Assembly: GCF_006489205.2 (NCBI RefSeq)
Contig: NZ_VFYR02000003.1
Coordinates: 241,462 to 305,461, forward strand
From: Brevibacterium sp. XM4083
Lineage (GTDB): Bacteria > Actinomycetota > Actinomycetes > Actinomycetales > Brevibacteriaceae
Length of the DNA: 64,000 bases
Reading direction: 5' to 3'
Positions 30,650 to 38,848 of this stretch are shown in pieces. Position 1 is the stretch's first letter. The number at the start of each line of letters is the position of its first letter. A model generated the notes under the pieces. The model was not told the DNA's origin, made no database searches, and saw only the letters and a list, made by a program, of their open reading frames with translations. The position numbers and the translations under genes were made by a program.

Positions 30650-32386
30650 TCACAGCAGCTTGATGTTGTCCTTCGCCTCGTCCCACAGTTCGGGGATCTC
30701 TCCGTGGAGGGCCCGCTTGAAGACGCTGAGCGTGAACTTGCCGATGAGGTCGGCGTCGACGGTCGAGGGCAGCGCGAGCGCGCGCTTGTTGACGACGACA
30801 TCGACGACGACCGGCCCGTCCTTGTAGGCGAGCGCCTCGGCGATCTGGTCACGCAGGCGCGCAGGGTCCTCGCAGCGGATGCCCTTGACGCCGAATCCCT
30901 CGGCGATCGCCGCATAGTTCGCGGCCGGGAACTCGGTGCCCCAGGGACGGAACCCGGCCTCCTGCTGTTCGATGTTGACGAAGTCGAGCTCCTCGTTGTT
31001 GAGGATGACGTGGACGATCGGCGACTTGTGCTGGCGTTCGGTGAGCAGGTCGCCGAGACCGAGCATCGAGAACCCGCCGTCCCCGCAGAGGGCGACGACC
31101 TGCCGTCCGGGCAGCGCCTTGGTCGCCCCGAACGCATACGGCGAGGCGTCGGCCATCGACGCCCACGAGTACGACCCGAACTGGAACCGATCACCGCCGA
31201 AGCTCATCTGGTGAGCGACCCAGATCACCGAGGTGCCGGTGTCGGCGGTGACGATCGCGTCGTCGTCGAGGAGGTCGTCGAGCACGGACGCGAGGTATTC
31301 GGGTCGGATCGGCGAGCGCTTCTCACCCCCGTCGACGTAGTGGCGCAGGCGCTTCCGCCAGCTCTCGGTGACGTGCTGTGCGGTGCGGAGGAACTCGTCG
31401 TTCCTCTTCGGCTCGATGAGCGGGAGGAGCTTCTCGAGGAAGACGCCGACGTCGGCGGGGATCGCGAGCTCGAGAGCCACCCGACGTCCCAGGTGGGAGG
31501 GGGTGTTGTCGACCTGGACGATCGTCGCGTGGCCGCGGTCGAGGAAGTCGGGGAACGGGAAGTCGGCCCCGAGCATGAGCATGACATCGGCATGCTTGAT
31601 ACAGTCGGCCGCCGCCCCGTATCCGAGCAGACCGGTCATGCCGACGGCATTGGGATTGTCGGCCTCCAGCCAGTTCTTGCCCTTGAGCGTGTAGCCGACG
31701 GGTGCCTTAGCTCTGTCGGAGAGCTGCTTGACGAGGTCGACGGCGTCGACGGTGCCGTTGCCGCCGAAGAGGAAGACCCGGTCGTGGCCGTTGATGAGAT
31801 CGGCGACGGCCTGGACGTCCTCGTAGTGCGGGGTCAGGACGGAACCGCGGGAGGAGGCGTAGACCGCGCGCTCCTCGAGCGGCGACTTCGCATGGGCGAC
31901 GTCACCGGGCAGGGCGATGACCGTGGGGCCGTGCTCCTCGGTGGCGACGGTGATCGCCTGCTGGAAGACCGCGCGCGCCTGGGTCGGGTTGACGACGCGA
32001 CCGGTGTAGAGCGAGGCGGTGCGGAACAGGTCGTACGGGCTGACCTCTTCGATCGCCTCGGTGTCGATGATGTTCGTCTCGACGTCGCCGGCGATCGCGA
32101 TGACCGGTGCCATCTCATGGAAGGCGTCGAGCAGGCCGTTGAGAAGGTGGGTGACGCCGGGACCGGCCGTGCCGCAGACGACGACGGGACCATCACTGAG
32201 CTGGGCGTCGGCCGAGGCGGCGAACGTGCCCCACTCCTCGTGTCGGACGTGGATGAACTCGATCTCCGGGTGTCGGGCGAGCGCGTCGATCGTCGGATTG
32301 AGTGCATCCCCGACGATTCCGTAGCATCGCTTCACGCCCGCCTGGATGAGCATGTCCCATAGGTCGTCGGCCACTGTTCGCGCCAT
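30650..32386 (-). CDS. poxB: pyruvate dehydrogenase (quinone) / pyruvate oxidase
   Basis: A 578-residue thiamine diphosphate enzyme that oxidises pyruvate to acetate and CO2, reducing membrane quinone (EC 1.2.5.1). The N-terminal pyrimidine-binding domain has the RHEEWGTFAASADAQL block with the catalytic Glu (about 50), the centre is the FAD/transhydrogenase-like domain, and GDGGFSMLGLGDLLTERQ (about 433-450) is the Mg-TPP motif. The typical lipid-binding C-terminus is short. Acetolactate synthase is less likely because no small subunit is near and the SYSWASMADASPYAFGA block is PoxB-like. Confidence 0.9.
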   Translation of the reverse strand: MARTVADDLWDMLIQAGVKRCYGIVGDALNPTIDALARHPEIEFIHVRHEEWGTFAASADAQLSDGPVVVCGTAGPGVTHLLNGLLDAFHEMAPVIAIAGDVETNIIDTEAIEEVSPYDLFRTASLYTGRVVNPTQARAVFQQAITVATEEHGPTVIALPGDVAHAKSPLEERAVYASSRGSVLTPHYEDVQAVADLINGHDRVFLFGGNGTVDAVDLVKQLSDRAKAPVGYTLKGKNWLEADNPNAVGMTGLLGYGAAADCIKHADVMLMLGADFPFPDFLDRGHATIVQVDNTPSHLGRRVALELAIPADVGVFLEKLLPLIEPKRNDEFLRTAQHVTESWRKRLRHYVDGGEKRSPIRPEYLASVLDDLLDDDAIVTADTGTSVIWVAHQMSFGGDRFQFGSYSWASMADASPYAFGATKALPGRQVVALCGDGGFSMLGLGDLLTERQHKSPIVHVILNNEELDFVNIEQQEAGFRPWGTEFPAANYAAIAEGFGVKGIRCEDPARLRDQIAEALAYKDGPVVVDVVVNKRALALPSTVDADLIGKFTLSVFKRALHGEIPELWDEAKDNIKLL

Positions 32387-32482: not shown

Positions 32483-33148
32483 TCAGCCCAGATACACCGC
32501 CGAGGCGGCCGCTTCGTCGATGACGGACGTGCCGGCGGCGCCGATGACGGCGATCTCGACCGTCCCTCCCGAGGCCGCGCGTCTGACGACGACGGTCGAC
32601 CCGGGCCGCACGCGCGCCTCGGCGAGGGTCGCGAGCACCTCGGGGTCGGCGTCGGAGACCCGCAGCACCTCGTACGACCCGGGGGCCGCCTCGGCGAGGA
32701 GAAGCGAGGAGTCATGGGACTGCACAGCTCCGTCGGATCCTGGGATCGGATCGCCGTGGGGGTCGGCGGCGGGATGGCCGAGGAACCCGTCGATCCGGTC
32801 GATGAGCAGATCGGACGCGGCATGCTCGAGCGCCTCGGCCTCATCGTGGACCTCGTCCCAGCTGTAGCCGAGCGACTCGACGAGGAACGTCTCGATGAGT
32901 CGGTGCCGCCGCACCATCGCCAGCGCGATGCTCTCTCCCGCCGCCGTCAGCTCCGGCGGACGGTAGGGCACCCGGTTGACGAGGCCGAGGTCGTCGAGGC
33001 GTTTGAGCACCTCGGTGACGTTGGCCTTCGTCGTCCCGAACCGCTGCGCGAGCGCAGTCGCCGTCATCGGATCCCCGCCCCACTCGCGCGCCGACCAGAT
33101 CGCCTTGAGATAGTCCTGACTGACCTCCGACACTTCCCCTGCACGCAT
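32483..33148 (-). CDS. DtxR/MntR-family metal-dependent repressor
   Basis: A 221-residue regulator. The winged helix (QDYLKAIWSAREWGGDPMTATALAQRFGTTKANVTEVLKRL region, residues about 10-50) and dimerisation domain with metal ligands (RHRLIETFLVESLGYSWDEVHDEAEALEHAAS, about 84-115) are complete, and an FeoA/SH3-like domain (about 150-215) follows, as in DtxR, IdeR and MntR. It would sense Fe2+ or Mn2+. It starts 4 nt after the Suc_Fer-like gene, making it the last gene of the operon that begins at 35651. A possible target is the mntH operator at 42253. Confidence 0.9.
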   Translation of the reverse strand: MRAGEVSEVSQDYLKAIWSAREWGGDPMTATALAQRFGTTKANVTEVLKRLDDLGLVNRVPYRPPELTAAGESIALAMVRRHRLIETFLVESLGYSWDEVHDEAEALEHAASDLLIDRIDGFLGHPAADPHGDPIPGSDGAVQSHDSSLLLAEAAPGSYEVLRVSDADPEVLATLAEARVRPGSTVVVRRAASGGTVEIAVIGAAGTSVIDEAAASAVYLG

Positions 33149-33152
33149 GTCG

Positions 33153-34106
33153 TCAGCGTAGTCGATCGTCAGCCGGGAGGACGGGAGCCGCGGTCACCGC
33201 GGTGACGGTGAAGACGTTGGCGACAGCGCGCTCGACTCCGCGGCACGTGAGGAAGTGCGGGTCCGACCGGGACACCGTGATGTCGACGTCGAAGGCCGCC
33301 GAGGCGGTCCGCCGATCGATGACCCGCACCGTCCACACCCCGTCGGCCGAATCGACGCCGCCGATCTCGTAGGCGAAGCGCCCGGCTGGTCCCCGCTCCT
33401 TGAGCACCGCGGCGACGGCGACCTGTTCGAGCGAGTTGAGGTCCGTGTAGCCGCGCAGATGGAAGCCGTCGATCTCATCGGCGAGGTGCCCGGCGATGAC
33501 GTCGACCGCGGTGTCCTCATCGAGATCCCCGTAGTAGACGCCGTCGGGCACGACGAGGATGTTCGCCGCGAATCGATCACCGCCGACGTGCGTGCACTCC
33601 CACACGAGATCCGGCCACCGCTCTGCGAGCGCCGCGGCCACGGGACGCCCGCGCACCGCACAGCAGACATCGTGCTGCCCGTGGGCGCAGACGAGGACGA
33701 CGGGCGGCAGAAGTCCCGTCTCGGACTGTGAGGTCTCGGACTGCGCGGCACACGCTTTGAGCGCCTCGACGATGGCGAGGAGATCGGAGTCGTCCTCCCA
33801 CTCTCCCCACATCTGGTGGAGGCGGCCGGGACCTTCGAGGTGCATGACACCCCAGACACCGGGCCCGCCGCGCGTGCGCCGGCCGGGTCGGCGGATGAGA
33901 AGAATCCTCGCCCGCAGCGTCTGCGCGGCGTAGAAGACCTCGGACCGCACACGCCAGTCGATGTCGAGGCCCTCGAAGCCGTTGATCGGCCACCCGCCTC
34001 GGTGTTCGATGAGCACCCAGTACGTCCCGCGCGGGGCGGTGCCGACGATGCTGTCGCCGCGGTCACGGGCGGCGTTCGAACAGCGGAAGCCCCGGACCTC
34101 GCTCAT
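33153..34106 (-). CDS. sucrase/ferredoxin-like (Suc_Fer) thioredoxin-fold 2Fe-2S protein
   Basis: A 317-residue protein with the family signature CAHGQHDVCCAVRGRPVA (Cys140, Cys148, Cys149) and a fourth Cys near the start (FRCSNAARDRGD, Cys9), which probably bind a 2Fe-2S cluster in a thioredoxin-like fold. GGDRFAANILVVPDGVYYG follows in the usual place. The C-terminal 90 residues are a beta-rich extension. The ATG has GAGGTG close upstream, 19 nt after the oxygenase stop codon. In this operon it could pass electrons to the iron oxygenase; the family has no settled function. Confidence 0.85.
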   Translation of the reverse strand: MSEVRGFRCSNAARDRGDSIVGTAPRGTYWVLIEHRGGWPINGFEGLDIDWRVRSEVFYAAQTLRARILLIRRPGRRTRGGPGVWGVMHLEGPGRLHQMWGEWEDDSDLLAIVEALKACAAQSETSQSETGLLPPVVLVCAHGQHDVCCAVRGRPVAAALAERWPDLVWECTHVGGDRFAANILVVPDGVYYGDLDEDTAVDVIAGHLADEIDGFHLRGYTDLNSLEQVAVAAVLKERGPAGRFAYEIGGVDSADGVWTVRVIDRRTASAAFDVDITVSRSDPHFLTCRGVERAVANVFTVTAVTAAPVLPADDRLR

Positions 34107-34125
34107 CGTCACCTCACCGCCTGCC

Positions 34126-35334
34126 TCAGCCGAGGGCGGGCACGAGCGCACCGGCGGCGAGCAGCCGTTCGGCAAGCGGCCGACCGATGTCGGCCACCGA
34201 CACCGGATCGCCGTCGAGGAGGGTGCGGACGTCGGGCAGCTCGGCGTCGGTGAAGTCGAACCAGCCGATCCGGGTGCGCAGGCGGTTCCCCTCAAGCGTC
34301 GCGTCGAGACCGGCGCGCAGTGTCAGCGGTGACGCGTCGTCGAGGTGCTTCATCGCCGCGTGCTGAGCGAGAGGACCCAACGGCGCCGGGCGCGCCTGCG
34401 ACCGGCTGATGCGGTCGATGCTCGGATTCGGGTCGGCGGCGGTGAGGGCCGAGACCATGGCCTCCCTGATCGCCTCAAGCGTCTCGGCGTCCGGACGGCT
34501 CTGACCCAGCGGCAGGCTCGCGCGCATCTGCGGATCGTCCTGGAGCCGAGCGAGTGCCGCCTGCGCGAGCTGCTCGGCGACTCCGTACCGCGTCCAATTG
34601 TGGATGCCGAGGGTGAGGTGGATCGAGACATCACCCTGGGCGGTCGCGGCGTGGAGCCAGCCGCGCGGCAGATAGAGGGCGTCGCCGGGTTCGAGCACGG
34701 CGTCGATGACGGGCTCGGTCGTCGCCGCCCGGCCCACGGCCTCGCGTCGGTCGGTCCACGGCTGGTCACGCAGGGGAGCATCGAAGACGGGTTCGTGGAT
34801 GACCCACCGCTTCGCGCCTTCGATCTGGAGGACGAAGACGTCGTGGACGTCGTAGTGGTCGTCGAAGCCCTGGTTCTGCGGCGGGGTGATGTAGGCGTTC
34901 GCCTGGACCGGGTTGCCGAGTTCGCGGCTGAGCGCGCTGGAGAACGCACCGATGGGCTCCCAGGTGCGCTGGAGCGCCTGGAGGACGAGGGTCGCTCCGG
35001 CATGGAACTGCTTCCACAGCTTCGTGTCATCGAGCTGGTCGCCGATCGTCGCGCCGACCCCGGCCGGGGAGGTGAACGACGCCGTCGGCAGGGTCGCGCC
35101 GTCCTTGGCGACCCGCAGGAACGGGGAGCGCAGACCGCGCGCGGAGATGAGCTCGTCGACGGCGCGGGAGGAGAAGAGGTCGGAGAAGTCGGAGACTCCG
35201 CGACTGAGCAGCGCTCGCCTGCCCCAATAGTCCTGGGCGAAGGTTCCGCGCGAGCAGTCGATGAGCCGGGATTCCAGCACCCCGGCGCCTGCAGCGGCGC
35301 CGGGGTGCTGGATCTCAGTGGTGGGGGTGCTCAA
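34126..35334 (-). CDS. JmjC/cupin-like Fe(II)/2-oxoglutarate oxygenase (RoxA-type)
   Basis: A 402-residue oxygenase. The metal triad HxD...H is visible as His160 and Asp162 (FDDHYDVHDVFVLQ) and His228 (LPRGWLHAA), with a likely 2-oxoglutarate-binding region between them; the C-terminal half is a helical/winged domain as in RoxA (YcfD), NO66 and MINA53, which hydroxylate Arg or His of ribosomal proteins. The TTG start overlaps the stop codon of the repeat-peptide gene (TTGA), with GGAG 10 nt upstream inside that gene. Coupling to a His-containing repeat protein makes that peptide a candidate substrate, as an alternative to a ribosomal protein. Confidence 0.82.
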   Translation of the reverse strand: MSTPTTEIQHPGAAAGAGVLESRLIDCSRGTFAQDYWGRRALLSRGVSDFSDLFSSRAVDELISARGLRSPFLRVAKDGATLPTASFTSPAGVGATIGDQLDDTKLWKQFHAGATLVLQALQRTWEPIGAFSSALSRELGNPVQANAYITPPQNQGFDDHYDVHDVFVLQIEGAKRWVIHEPVFDAPLRDQPWTDRREAVGRAATTEPVIDAVLEPGDALYLPRGWLHAATAQGDVSIHLTLGIHNWTRYGVAEQLAQAALARLQDDPQMRASLPLGQSRPDAETLEAIREAMVSALTAADPNPSIDRISRSQARPAPLGPLAQHAAMKHLDDASPLTLRAGLDATLEGNRLRTRIGWFDFTDAELPDVRTLLDGDPVSVADIGRPLAERLLAAGALVPALG

Positions 35335-35651
35335 GGTCGGTCGGCTCCACCGTCGGCACCGCCGTCGTGAACACCGGGTTCACCCGATGCGCCGCCATCG
35401 GCAGGGCCTTCTGCTCCGCCGTCGGCACCGCCGTCCTGGACACCCGGGGTGCCCGCGGCACCGCCGTCGGCCGGACCCTCGGCGCCACCGTCAGCACCGC
35501 CGTCGTGGACACCGGGGGTGCCCGATGCGCCGCCGTCCGCGGGACCTTCGGCGCCGCCGTCGGCGCCACCGTCATGAACGCCAGGCGTGCCCGCGGCACC
35601 GCCGTCGGCCGGGCCCTCGGTTTCGTTAGGATCGAAGTTGGATTCCGTCAT
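35331..35651 (-). CDS. perfectly repeated Asp/Gly/Ala-rich peptide
   Basis: A 106-residue protein: 11 leader residues (MTESNFDPNET), four 23-residue repeats and a 3-residue end. Each repeat is EGPADGGA, then A or S, then GTPGVHDGG (Gln for His in repeat 3, Glu for Thr in repeat 4), then ADGGA. There is no signal peptide, Cys or aromatic residue other than the Phe of the leader. AAGGAGG 8 nt before the ATG is the best Shine-Dalgarno site of the window, so it should be well made. Its stop overlaps the oxygenase start. It could be a multi-core precursor peptide, a metal-binding or a structural protein; no function is known to me. Confidence 0.75.
   Translation of the reverse strand: MTESNFDPNETEGPADGGAAGTPGVHDGGADGGAEGPADGGASGTPGVHDGGADGGAEGPADGGAAGTPGVQDGGADGGAEGPADGGASGEPGVHDGGADGGADRP
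35343..35618 (-). repeat. four 69-bp tandem coding repeats
   Basis: In-frame units at 35618-35550, 35549-35481, 35480-35412 and 35411-35343. Units 1 and 3 (Ala) and 2 and 4 (Ser) alternate, so the array looks like a duplication of a 138-bp dimer. Confidence 0.9.
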
Positions 35652-35832
35652 GATTCCTCCTTGATATCGCGTGGCAGCGGCGGCACCCGGTCAGCCGTCG
35701 ATCCTGGCCGCGCTCGGGCCTGCGTCGTCCCCGGTTGGGACGAGCCGCCTTGCTGACAGGCTACGTGTCAAACCGTCCGTTGTGAACAGGGCTGACGAGG
35801 ATTTTCGTCGAGTTCACCCGGCCCGGTCCGAT

Positions 35833-35868
35833 GCCGTCCGCGCAGCGGTGAGACGAAGTCCGCGCAGC
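35833..35868. repeat. 36-bp direct repeat, copy 1
   Basis: GCCGTCCGCGCAGCGG followed by TGAGACGAAGTCCGCGCAGC; copy 2 at 36485-36520 matches at 32 of 36 positions. The two copies flank the DUF2127 gene. Within each, GTCCGCGCAGC is itself repeated. The rest of the 304-nt gap 35652-35955 holds no gene that I can support. Confidence 0.7.
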
Positions 35869-35955
35869 GCCGAGGCGGGCCGAGCGGACATAGAGTGGAT
35901 TGAGCGCTGGCCGGTGCCGACGCCAGGCCACCGAGCGGAGAGGAGAGACACGACG

Positions 35956-36477
35956 ATGCGCGAGAAGCTCCTCGACCTCGTCTTCCTCATCGGCGTGTTC
36001 GGCAAGGGGATCGACGGACTCGCCGAGGTGGTCGGCGGGGTCGTGCTCCTCCTCACCACACCCGCACAGCTGACTGGCGCCGCCCGGGCCCTCACCGCCG
36101 AGGAGCTCACCGAAGATCCCCACGACCTGCTGGCCACCCTCCTCCTGCACGGCACCGCCCACCTCGACGGACGGACGACGACCTTCGCGGCGCTCTATCT
36201 TCTCGTCCACGGCGTGGTCAAACTCGCCATCATTGCCGCGCTGCTCTTCGGCACCACACGCCTCTACCCGTGGGCCATCCTCGCCCTCACCGGGTTCCTC
36301 GTCTTCCAGATCTATCAGCTCGTCGTCTCGCCGGGGATCGGCCTCGTCGTCCTCAGCGTGCTCGACGCCCTCATCATCTGGCTGACATGGCGAGAATGGC
36401 GCCGCGGACGCACCGTCCGCGACGCCATCGCCGAAGTCCGCGCGTGGCGTCGCCCCCGACGCGGGACCGCCGACTGA
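35956..36477 (+). CDS. DUF2127 membrane protein
   Basis: A 173-residue inner-membrane protein with an N-terminal helix (LLDLVFLIGVFGKGIDGLAE), a soluble loop with TAEELTEDPHDLLATLLLHG, and three C-terminal helices (about 75-97, 103-125, 128-148), the pattern of DUF2127 proteins. The HGVVKLAIIAALLF block is characteristic. ATG 35956 follows GGAGAGGAGAG. Function unknown. The gene is flanked by 36-bp direct repeats. Confidence 0.8.
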   Translation: MREKLLDLVFLIGVFGKGIDGLAEVVGGVVLLLTTPAQLTGAARALTAEELTEDPHDLLATLLLHGTAHLDGRTTTFAALYLLVHGVVKLAIIAALLFGTTRLYPWAILALTGFLVFQIYQLVVSPGIGLVVLSVLDALIIWLTWREWRRGRTVRDAIAEVRAWRRPRRGTAD

Positions 36478-37183: not shown

Positions 37184-37315
37184 GATGCCTCCTGGGGTGA
37201 GATGAGCGCGGGGATCGCGCCTCAGCCCCGACAATAGCCGCTTTTCGCTGTTGCCCCCATCCCCTATTCGCGCGATAGTCGAGTGCAAGGGCACCTGCGA
37301 GGCGAGGAGGACCGC

Positions 37316-38848
37316 GTGGACGTCACCGCTCTGCTTCCCCTGCTCGACGCGGGCGACTACACGATCGCCCGCGAGATCCTCCAACGCGGCTTCGCGGTCC
37401 TCTTCCTCATCGCCTTCGTCAACGCGTGGAACCAGTTTCCGCCCCTCCTCGGCGAGCACGGCCTCCTCCCCGCGCCGCGCTTCATCGCCCTGACGACGGC
37501 ACGGCAGGCCCCGAGCCTCTTCCGCTGGAGACGCACCCCCTACTCCGATCGCAACCTCCGCATCGTCTGCGCCGTCGGCATCCTCCTCGCCCTCACCGTC
37601 ATCGTCGGCCTCCCCCAGGCGGGACCCGCGTGGGCGCCGATTCCCGTGTTCCTCCTCATGTGGTGGCTCTACTTCTCGATCTCGGCGATCGGGCAGCGCT
37701 TCTACGGCTTCGGCTGGGAGAGCCTGCTCCTCGAGGCAGGATTCCTCGTCGGATTCCTCGGCTCCCACGCGGTCGCCCCGCCGCTGCTCATGATCCTCCT
37801 GCTGCGGTGGTTCACCGTCCGCGTCGAGTTCGGCGCCGGGATGATCAAGATGCGCGGGGACAGCTCGTGGCGTGATCTCACGGCGATGAACTACCACCAC
37901 CAGACGCAGCCGATGCCCGGCCCGCTCAGCCGCACCGCCCACCTCAAACCGGCATGGTGGCACAAGGGCGAGACGCTCGGCAGTCACATCGTCCAGCTCA
38001 TCGCCCCGTGGCTGCTCTTCCTCCCCCAGCCCATCGCCTCATTCGCCGCGGCCGCGATCATCATCACCCAGCTCGCACTCGTCATCACCGGCAACTACGC
38101 GTGGCTCAATTGGGCGACGATCCTGCTCGCGTGTGCGGGCATCAGCGACTCCTTCCTCCGCTGGATCATCGGCGGTCCGTGGCCGGAGTGGGGCATCGAC
38201 GCCGTTGTCCGCACTGTCCAGGATCCCCTCGCCGAGGCGGCCGGCAGTTCCGCTGCCTATCCGCCGTCCCCGCTGTGGTGGGTGCTCCTCATCACCGCGT
38301 TCGTCATCTGGCAGGCCATCCTCAACATCCCGGCGCTGCGCAACCTCTTCTCTCCGCGGCAGCTGATGAACGCCCACTTCAACCGCTGGGGCCTCGGCAA
38401 CGCCTATGGGGCGTTCGGGTCGATGTCGGAGACCCGTCACGAGATCGCCATCGAGGGCACGCTCGACCCCTCGGGCACGGCCGGGTGGAAGGAGTACGTC
38501 TTCAAGGGCAAGCCCGGTGACGTCACCCGGCGCGGACCCGTCGTCGCGCCCTACCATCTGCGGCTCGACTGGCTCATGTGGTTCGCCGCGCTCGGCGACT
38601 ACCGGGACTCCTGGTTCCTCGCGCTCCTCGAACGCCTCGCGACCGGGGATCGGCTCATCCGTCGGCTGCTCGGCCCCGACCCGTTCGACGGGGAGGCTCC
38701 CGCCCTCATCCGCGCCCGGATGTTCACCTACCGGTATGCGACACGGGAGGAGCGTCGCGCGGCGCGGGCCGCGGGCGAGCCCGTGCCGTGGTGGGTCCGC
38801 TCCGACCCTGTGACGATCGTCCGTCCCGTCTCCCTGCGCGGCCGCTGA
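37316..38848 (+). CDS. lipase maturation factor family membrane protein
   Basis: A 510-residue protein with seven or more membrane helices in the first 330 residues and a soluble C-terminal domain. NQFPPLLGEHGLLPAPRFI, GQRFYGFGWESLLLEAGF, and later NAYGAFGSMSETRHEIAIEG and the APYHLRLDWLMWFAALGDY block are diagnostic of the LMF1/LMF2 family. In animals LMF1 helps lipases fold in the ER; the bacterial role is unknown. GTG 37316 has GAGGAGG 5 nt upstream. Its 3' end overlaps the convergent MFS gene by 125 nt. Confidence 0.88.
   Translation: MDVTALLPLLDAGDYTIAREILQRGFAVLFLIAFVNAWNQFPPLLGEHGLLPAPRFIALTTARQAPSLFRWRRTPYSDRNLRIVCAVGILLALTVIVGLPQAGPAWAPIPVFLLMWWLYFSISAIGQRFYGFGWESLLLEAGFLVGFLGSHAVAPPLLMILLLRWFTVRVEFGAGMIKMRGDSSWRDLTAMNYHHQTQPMPGPLSRTAHLKPAWWHKGETLGSHIVQLIAPWLLFLPQPIASFAAAAIIITQLALVITGNYAWLNWATILLACAGISDSFLRWIIGGPWPEWGIDAVVRTVQDPLAEAAGSSAAYPPSPLWWVLLITAFVIWQAILNIPALRNLFSPRQLMNAHFNRWGLGNAYGAFGSMSETRHEIAIEGTLDPSGTAGWKEYVFKGKPGDVTRRGPVVAPYHLRLDWLMWFAALGDYRDSWFLALLERLATGDRLIRRLLGPDPFDGEAPALIRARMFTYRYATREERRAARAAGEPVPWWVRSDPVTIVRPVSLRGR

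Follow-up and report, generated by a model that had tools for sequence, protein, structure and literature searches.

A conserved peptide-oxygenase gene pair in Actinobacteria, probably a minimal RiPP-like system

Four minus-strand genes at positions 32483-35651 of the window (a 64,000-nt stretch of Brevibacterium sp. XM4083) encode, in this order, a repeat peptide, a JmjC_2 oxygenase, a Suc_Fer ferredoxin and a DtxR protein. The features are as follows.

35652..35662, minus strand: strong Shine-Dalgarno region of the peptide gene, AAGGAGGAATC; similar sites lie upstream of most relatives
35331..35651, minus strand: gene 1, precursor peptide, 106 aa; homologous peptides occur upstream of the JmjC gene phylum-wide
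34126..35334, minus strand: gene 2, ROX-type JmjC (PF08007) Fe(II)/2OG oxygenase, 402 aa; triad at residues 160/162/228
34129..34347, minus strand: C-terminal winged-helix domain of the oxygenase, residues 330-402 (AF2 model, pLDDT 93; VIA-align)
33153..34106, minus strand: gene 3, Suc_Fer-like thioredoxin-fold [2Fe-2S] ferredoxin, 317 aa; CAHGQHDVCC
32483..33148, minus strand: gene 4, DtxR/MntR-family regulator, 221 aa; Fe_dep_repress, Fe_dep_repr_C and FeoA domains

The coordinates agreed with the gaps of -4, 19 and 4 nt given in an earlier note on this DNA, the 19 nt separating gene 2 from gene 3 and the 4 nt gene 3 from gene 4. The oxygenase starts with a TTG inside the stop codon of the peptide gene, producing the 4-nt overlap, and the peptide gene itself is preceded by AAGGAGGAATC-ATG; strong GGAGGA-type sites recurred in relatives. 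The signature CxHGxxDxCC noted earlier in gene 3 was present as CAHGQHDVCC together with a match to Suc_Fer PF06999 (E=1e-15; 58.8 bits vs 34.9), and the DtxR-type assignment of gene 4 was upheld by its three domains.

The precursor consists of an 11-aa leader and four 23-aa repeats, EGPADGGAxGxPGxHDGGADGGA, followed by DRP; it contains neither Cys nor Lys. The repeat number, the leader length and the presence of His in three repeats (1, 2 and 4, with Gln in repeat 3) were as described before, but the repeats were near-identical rather than perfect, differing by 1-3 aa. Pairs of repeats differed at 8-15 synonymous vs only 1-3 nonsynonymous codons, showing that purifying selection acts on the protein repeat and that the array is more than a recent DNA duplication. 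Across three Brevibacterium genomes, copy number took the values 3, 4 and 5. Neither Pfam nor NCBIfam matched gene 1, and neither gave a meaningful match to the core types tested. Many clades carried a D-D/E-I-x-T leader motif, which could not be seen in the Brevibacterium/Streptomyces branch.

At approximately 95% of 186 homologous oxygenase loci, drawn from several classes of the phylum Actinobacteria, a short Asp-rich peptide ORF stood immediately upstream of the oxygenase gene (median gap -4 nt). A crude peptide detector was positive at 160/186 oxygenase loci vs 3/783 control positions upstream of other genes. When genomes carried a DGGA array (at least three DGGADG[GS]A matches on the same strand), the oxygenase was present in 32/32, vs 72/297 genomes overall (P=3e-23). 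Among 594 pattern matches listed, at least 582 proved to be true relatives. The conservation of this arrangement across the phylum excludes chance, supporting the repeat peptide and the oxygenase as a dedicated, co-conserved pair. The earlier note had held that relatives with the two genes routinely apart would refute the peptide as substrate; the genes were instead together, and the note's central idea, that the oxygenase acts on the peptide, receives strong support. The acidic peptide upstream was degenerate in Arsenicicoccus species, and no peptide was found at the Piscicoccus locus or at a remote Brevibacterium homologue (L006/L173). Spread by phages or plasmids was rejected, as no relative was found among the viral contigs or plasmids searched. 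A Streptomyces albidoflavus strain was among the carriers of the cassette.

The Suc_Fer gene lay directly downstream on the same strand in 120/150 loci and in 29 of 36 sampled genera or families, confirming its proposed linkage to peptide and oxygenase; it was missing in about 20% of loci. Elsewhere the neighborhood consisted of peptide, oxygenase and usually Suc_Fer; DtxR adjoined the cassette only in Brevibacterium. A DtxR orthologue occurred in approximately 36 of 57 Brevibacterium genomes, mostly without the cassette, so this regulator was rejected as a component and regarded as a separate Brevibacterium gene. IdeR/DtxR, Zur, Fur and MntR boxes were not found upstream of the peptide gene in a crude consensus scan of 73 loci, the best matches not exceeding those in shuffled sequence. 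No exporter, peptidase or further enzyme recurred near the cassette in the 36 genera or families. Of the features by which RiPP clusters are recognized, a short precursor gene adjoining and co-conserved with the modifying enzyme was present, and an associated peptidase or exporter, common but not universal in such clusters, was absent. The absence of a conserved transporter or protease, together with the peptide composition (34% G, 19% A, 16% D), would also fit a hydrophilin-like disordered stress protein or an acidic buffer, modified only incidentally. A generic hydrophilin would not be expected to pair so strictly with a single oxygenase family, and we regard this explanation as very unlikely.

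The oxygenase matched JmjC_2 PF08007 with E=1.2e-28 (99.7 bits vs the Pfam curated cut-off of 22). Its HxD...H triad, noted earlier as His160, Asp162 and His228, was complete and invariant in 154/154 homologues. The model (pLDDT 85) combined a cupin, a helical region and a winged helix, the overall fold of ROX enzymes; the closest relatives in the fold search, among the matches listed, were NO66 (Z 25.6 over 364-368 residues), MINA53 (23.6) and YcfD (17.7). As these closest solved relatives are ribosomal oxygenases, the peptide might be a chaperone, inhibitor, regulatory partner or translational-coupling element, with a ribosomal or other protein as the actual target, as for NO66, MINA53 and ROXA. 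The multi-repeat design, in which purifying selection acts on every repeat, the variation of copy number among Brevibacterium genomes and the switching of core types with enzyme clade all fit a multi-site substrate better, making a non-substrate peptide unlikely. We infer that the peptide is the substrate of the oxygenase. The C-terminal domain aligned by VIA-align with MINA53/NO66 at Z 8-9.5 and with the RRE-type folds of NisB, ThcOx, TbiB1, PbtF, McbB, TruD and PqqD at Z 5-6. It is proposed as a candidate leader-binding domain; ROX-family C-terminal domains are generally winged helices, so likeness to RREs does not point specifically to leader binding.

Oxygenase clades were associated with different cores, namely DGGA, DGTD/DAD, GDSD-VDP, SSSDFI and GRSDGND. 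The GDSD, SSSDFI and GRSDGND types were each monophyletic on the enzyme tree (support approximately 0.99 or above), showing that core type follows oxygenase clade and that the two co-diversified clade by clade. The only feature common to all core types was an Asp flanked by small residues. Among 156 distinct peptides, Asp was present in all, Cys in none and Pro in 150, while His was missing from 43. Gly and Ala were as universal as Asp; conservation by itself therefore cannot name the modified site, and Asp was selected because no other universal residue has a functional side chain.

The hydroxylation carried out by ROX enzymes is at C3 of His or Arg side chains. A reading built on the earlier note has the oxygenase hydroxylating the His of GVHDGG and the product taking part in metal uptake controlled by DtxR, a view in keeping with the His hydroxylation by NO66 and MINA53, with the 152 occurrences of His ahead of DGGADG among 69 peptides and with the neighboring DtxR gene in Brevibacterium. 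However, many relatives carried Gln, Ser or Thr in place of the His (Gln in Nocardioides and Brachybacterium) or lacked it, as did whole clades, and outside Brevibacterium the cassette had no DtxR. His was therefore rejected as the target on conservation, Asp being universal; the dedicated pairing assumed in that proposal stood, and the proposal as a whole retains only a slight chance of being right. Modification by a different reaction or of a different residue deserves more weight, although we think it rather unlikely; it might be hydroxylation at Pro or Ala, cross-linking by oxidation, or an oxidation that ends in dehydro-Asp or aspartimide where Asp precedes Gly. Pro is nearly universal, Asp-Gly sequences are prone to aspartimide formation, and 2OG oxygenases are versatile, a 2OG macrocyclase of RiPPs having reportedly been described. 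By contrast, six peptides lacked Pro, as did the DGGA-only, DAD and TDGDA repeats themselves, and C3 hydroxylation is the chemistry for which ROX enzymes are known.

The reading that we favor, and consider reasonably probable, is that of a minimal RiPP-like system whose oxygenase repeatedly beta-hydroxylates Asp of the repeat precursor. It would comprise three genes, encoding a disordered Asp/Gly/Ala-rich multi-repeat precursor, a ROX-type JmjC oxygenase and usually a Suc_Fer ferredoxin. The precursor would probably be made in quantity, its translation coupled to that of the oxygenase. Its N-terminal leader, probably D-D/E-I-x-T ancestrally, may dock on the RRE-like C-terminal domain while the catalytic domain hydroxylates the beta-carbon of many repeat Asp residues one after another; the ferredoxin would most likely hold the iron in the ferrous state when turnovers are uncoupled. 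The predicted product, a peptide bearing many beta-hydroxyaspartates, would be a strong ligand for hard metals, and metal chelation by it is plausible. Since no exporter or protease is conserved, it probably acts inside the cell. Tentatively, the cassettes could represent an undescribed phylum-wide class of RiPP-like polymer, in which a ROX-type JmjC oxygenase, guided by its RRE-like domain and served by a dedicated ferredoxin, makes a poly-beta-hydroxyaspartate peptide; the latter would be an intracellular, multi-site binder of Fe3+, Mn2+ or Ca2+ and a ribosomal counterpart of hydroxyaspartate siderophores. This broader suggestion is possible rather than probable. Across hundreds of Actinobacteria, an orphan branch of JmjC ribosomal-oxygenase-like enzymes is tied by genetic linkage to a specific substrate candidate, and the oxygenase hints at how the folds of ribosomal oxygenases and RiPP recognition domains are related. 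Should Asp beta-hydroxylation prove true, the peptide would amount to a poly-hydroxyaspartate material that is tunable and genetically encoded, and might also form a new system for handling metals.

No description of a conserved peptide-oxygenase-ferredoxin system was found in the literature searched, in line with the earlier remark that no described system of this composition was known; the string DGGADGG and the term "BatC protein" were likewise not found there. The ROX family (NO66, MINA53, YcfD/ROXA) shares the JmjC_2 domain, the HxD...H triad, the helical region and the C-terminal winged helix with the Brevibacterium enzyme, but acts on uL2, uL15 and uL16, whereas genome context suggests that the Brevibacterium enzyme adjoins and co-evolves with an Asp-rich repeat peptide. 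BipG, which hydroxylates a RiPP precursor in biphenomycin biosynthesis (PMC12707348), and BpmG (PMC12257519) are likewise JmjC enzymes working on a precursor peptide. Theirs is a single ornithine gamma-hydroxylation within a large cluster with an MNIO, a B12-rSAM enzyme and a protease; the Brevibacterium system has one oxygenase and a repetitive Asp peptide without these partners. Other iron enzymes form 3-hydroxyaspartate, possibly the same product residue, in RiPPs: CanE in canucin (PMC9266682) and PesHI in nitrilobacillin (PMC13060819). CanE, however, belongs to a lasso-peptide cluster as a putative non-heme Fe/2OG enzyme (PMC9266682) and PesHI belongs to an MNIO system (PMC13060819), each acting at a single site inside a full RiPP cluster. 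The RRE-Finder study, in the portion consulted, notes RRE-like folds in PF08007 proteins, with bacterial homologues in settings that resemble RiPP clusters (PMC12710340); it names eukaryotic examples, and a repeat-peptide/ferredoxin system was not found described in that portion. Bufferins, as far as the consulted part of PMC12452194 goes, also combine a short ribosomal peptide with an iron oxidase and metal binding, the last only proposed in the Brevibacterium system; they differ in using an MNIO enzyme and chelating copper, whereas the peptides of the present system all lack Cys and are paired with a 2OG oxygenase.

On re-reading the window, the four minus-strand ORFs (gaps of -4, 19 and 4 nt) with their 23-residue repeats, the HxD...H triad of the oxygenase, the ferredoxin motif and the DtxR-type domains were all confirmed. 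The peptide, described in the earlier note as perfectly repeated, does consist of repeats, but these are near-identical rather than identical. The genes that flank this locus were as follows.

30650-32386, minus strand: PoxB-like TPP enzyme (pyruvate oxidase/dehydrogenase), following the DtxR gene after about 100 nt in the same orientation
35671-36477, plus strand: DUF2127 membrane protein, divergent, its ORF beginning just upstream of the peptide gene; start uncertain
37283-38848, plus strand: lipase maturation factor homologue with LMF1 and LMF1_C domains

The lipase maturation factor family is better known from animals. At the DNA level, pairs of repeats in the peptide gene differed by 8-15 synonymous and only 1-3 nonsynonymous codons, indicating that the amino-acid sequence of each repeat is held by selection. 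A close oxygenase homologue was found in 3 of 57 Brevibacterium genomes and the peptide in exactly those three, with 3, 4 and 5 repeats.

Oxygenase homologues were gathered from the order, class and phylum, together with 80 loci of named genomes (Streptomyces, Arthrobacter, Brachybacterium, Leucobacter, Nocardioides, Cellulomonas, Microbacterium, Dietzia, Rhodococcus and others). Nearly every homologous locus had a short Asp-rich ORF whose end met or narrowly preceded the start of the oxygenase, with a median gap of -4 nt (quartiles -13 to 3, oxygenase start estimated). A crude peptide detector (the count of Asp minus Arg and Lys) was positive at 160 of 186 oxygenase loci, which are only partly independent (some genomes are counted twice, and the 80 named loci lean towards Streptomyces and Arthrobacter), versus 3 of 783 positions upstream of further long ORFs at those loci. 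The peptide and oxygenase are kept together throughout the phylum. Most of the detector-negative loci had an Asp-rich ORF when read directly. At least three same-strand DGGADG[GS]A matches were present in 32 of 297 genomes; all 32 carried the oxygenase, which occurred in 72 of the 297 overall (P=3e-23, genomes treated as independent).

Of the 150 loci with sufficient sequence, 120 had the Suc_Fer ferredoxin, suggested as a partner, immediately downstream in the same orientation; this count includes 15 of 21 loci with more distant oxygenases. By taxon, the arrangement occurred in 29 of the 36 genera or families sampled. No exporter or peptidase recurred near the cassette of peptide, oxygenase and Suc_Fer across the 36 genera or families. 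The DtxR regulator could not be upheld as part of the system; it adjoined the cassette only in Brevibacterium, and most of the Brevibacterium genomes with its orthologue (roughly 73-83% identity; about 36 of 57 genomes) lacked the cassette. No metal-regulator box stood out upstream of the peptide gene in a crude consensus scan of 73 loci.

The repeat cores differed by enzyme clade. DGGA arrays accompanied 115 of the 154 enzymes in the oxygenase tree; further types were DGTD/DAD repeats, GDSD...VDPAGSD repeats, a 35-residue peptide with the C-terminal end GGDSDGTDSSSDFI and a peptide ending GGRSDGND. The GDSD, SSSDFI and GRSDGND types were each monophyletic in the oxygenase tree (support about 0.99 or higher), indicating joint diversification of enzyme and peptide. 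In one family (L149, L161-L168), a nearly invariant 35-residue peptide, MDPIEVEVEDLAEVTSRDITAGGDSDGTDSSSDFI, preceded a 31-34% identical JmjC enzyme; this pair is a compact, non-repetitive form of the system. JmjC homologues at L150, L151 and L156 followed a different kind of peptide, ending GRSDGND or GRSDMNDS and, at L151 and L156, GLLIxxRRIxAARxRAE-like. Outside the Brevibacterium/Streptomyces branch, many clades had a leader motif of the form D-D/E-I-x-T.

All 156 distinct peptides contained Asp, Gly and Ala and lacked Cys; 6 lacked Pro. His, earlier thought to be the modified residue, was missing from 43, and the residue before DGGADG in the DGGA class was His at 152 sites, Gln at 26 and Ala at 166. 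Since Asp is universal and His variable, we infer that the modified residue is more likely Asp.

Several loci departed from the pattern. No upstream peptide was found in Piscicoccus, nor an Asp-rich one upstream of a remote Brevibacterium JmjC homologue (L006/L173, genome G028; 25-29% identity), which may be an ordinary ribosomal oxygenase and would make a useful control. In Arsenicicoccus cauae, A. bolidensis and one genome of the same genus group (L024, L032, L121, L134), the oxygenase was intact and the upstream ORF was degenerate, acidic and non-repetitive, ending ...GPTxEPGA; A. piscis (L125) had HDRDHGADHGAD-type repeats instead. The Arsenicicoccus loci form a natural series for probing the residue needs of the oxygenase.

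The AlphaFold2 model of the oxygenase (pLDDT 85) showed the architecture of the ribosomal-oxygenase family, matching NO66 (Z 25.6), MINA53 (23.6) and YcfD (17.7), and the triad was invariant in 154 of 154 oxygenases. The C-terminal domain modelled alone (pLDDT 93) matched the winged helices of MINA53 and NO66 best (Z 8-9.5), and most of the next matches were RiPP recognition elements (RREs) or leader-binding domains (NisB, ThcOx, TbiB1, MibB, PbtF, McbB, TruD and PqqD; Z 5-6). Because the latter values are middling, leader docking on this domain is put forward as a proposal. Independently, a 2025 survey draws attention to RRE-like folds in PF08007 proteins and to bacterial homologues that occur in RiPP-like contexts (PMC12710340).

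In the proposed mechanism, the peptide would probably be produced abundantly from its strong ribosome-binding site and be translationally coupled to the oxygenase. The oxygenase would bind the leader and, consuming 2-oxoglutarate and O2, hydroxylate C3 of one Asp residue after another; the ferredoxin would keep the enzyme ferrous. DGGA-class peptides have about 6-25 D-x-G-A sites each, which in the product are potentially beta-hydroxyaspartate, known to bind iron in the cupriachelins and other siderophores (PMC10484230). Composition and the ferredoxin neighbour are what would point to metal binding by the product.

No description of the three-gene system was found in the literature searched, which covered few subscription journals; it is probably a new RiPP class, though not a categorically new one. 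Xia et al. reportedly described 2OG macrocyclases in RiPPs in 2025. BipG, which performs ornithine gamma-hydroxylation (PMC12707348), is a JmjC enzyme working on a RiPP precursor. Other enzymes, CanE (PMC9266682) and PesHI (PMC13060819), make 3-hydroxyaspartate in RiPPs.
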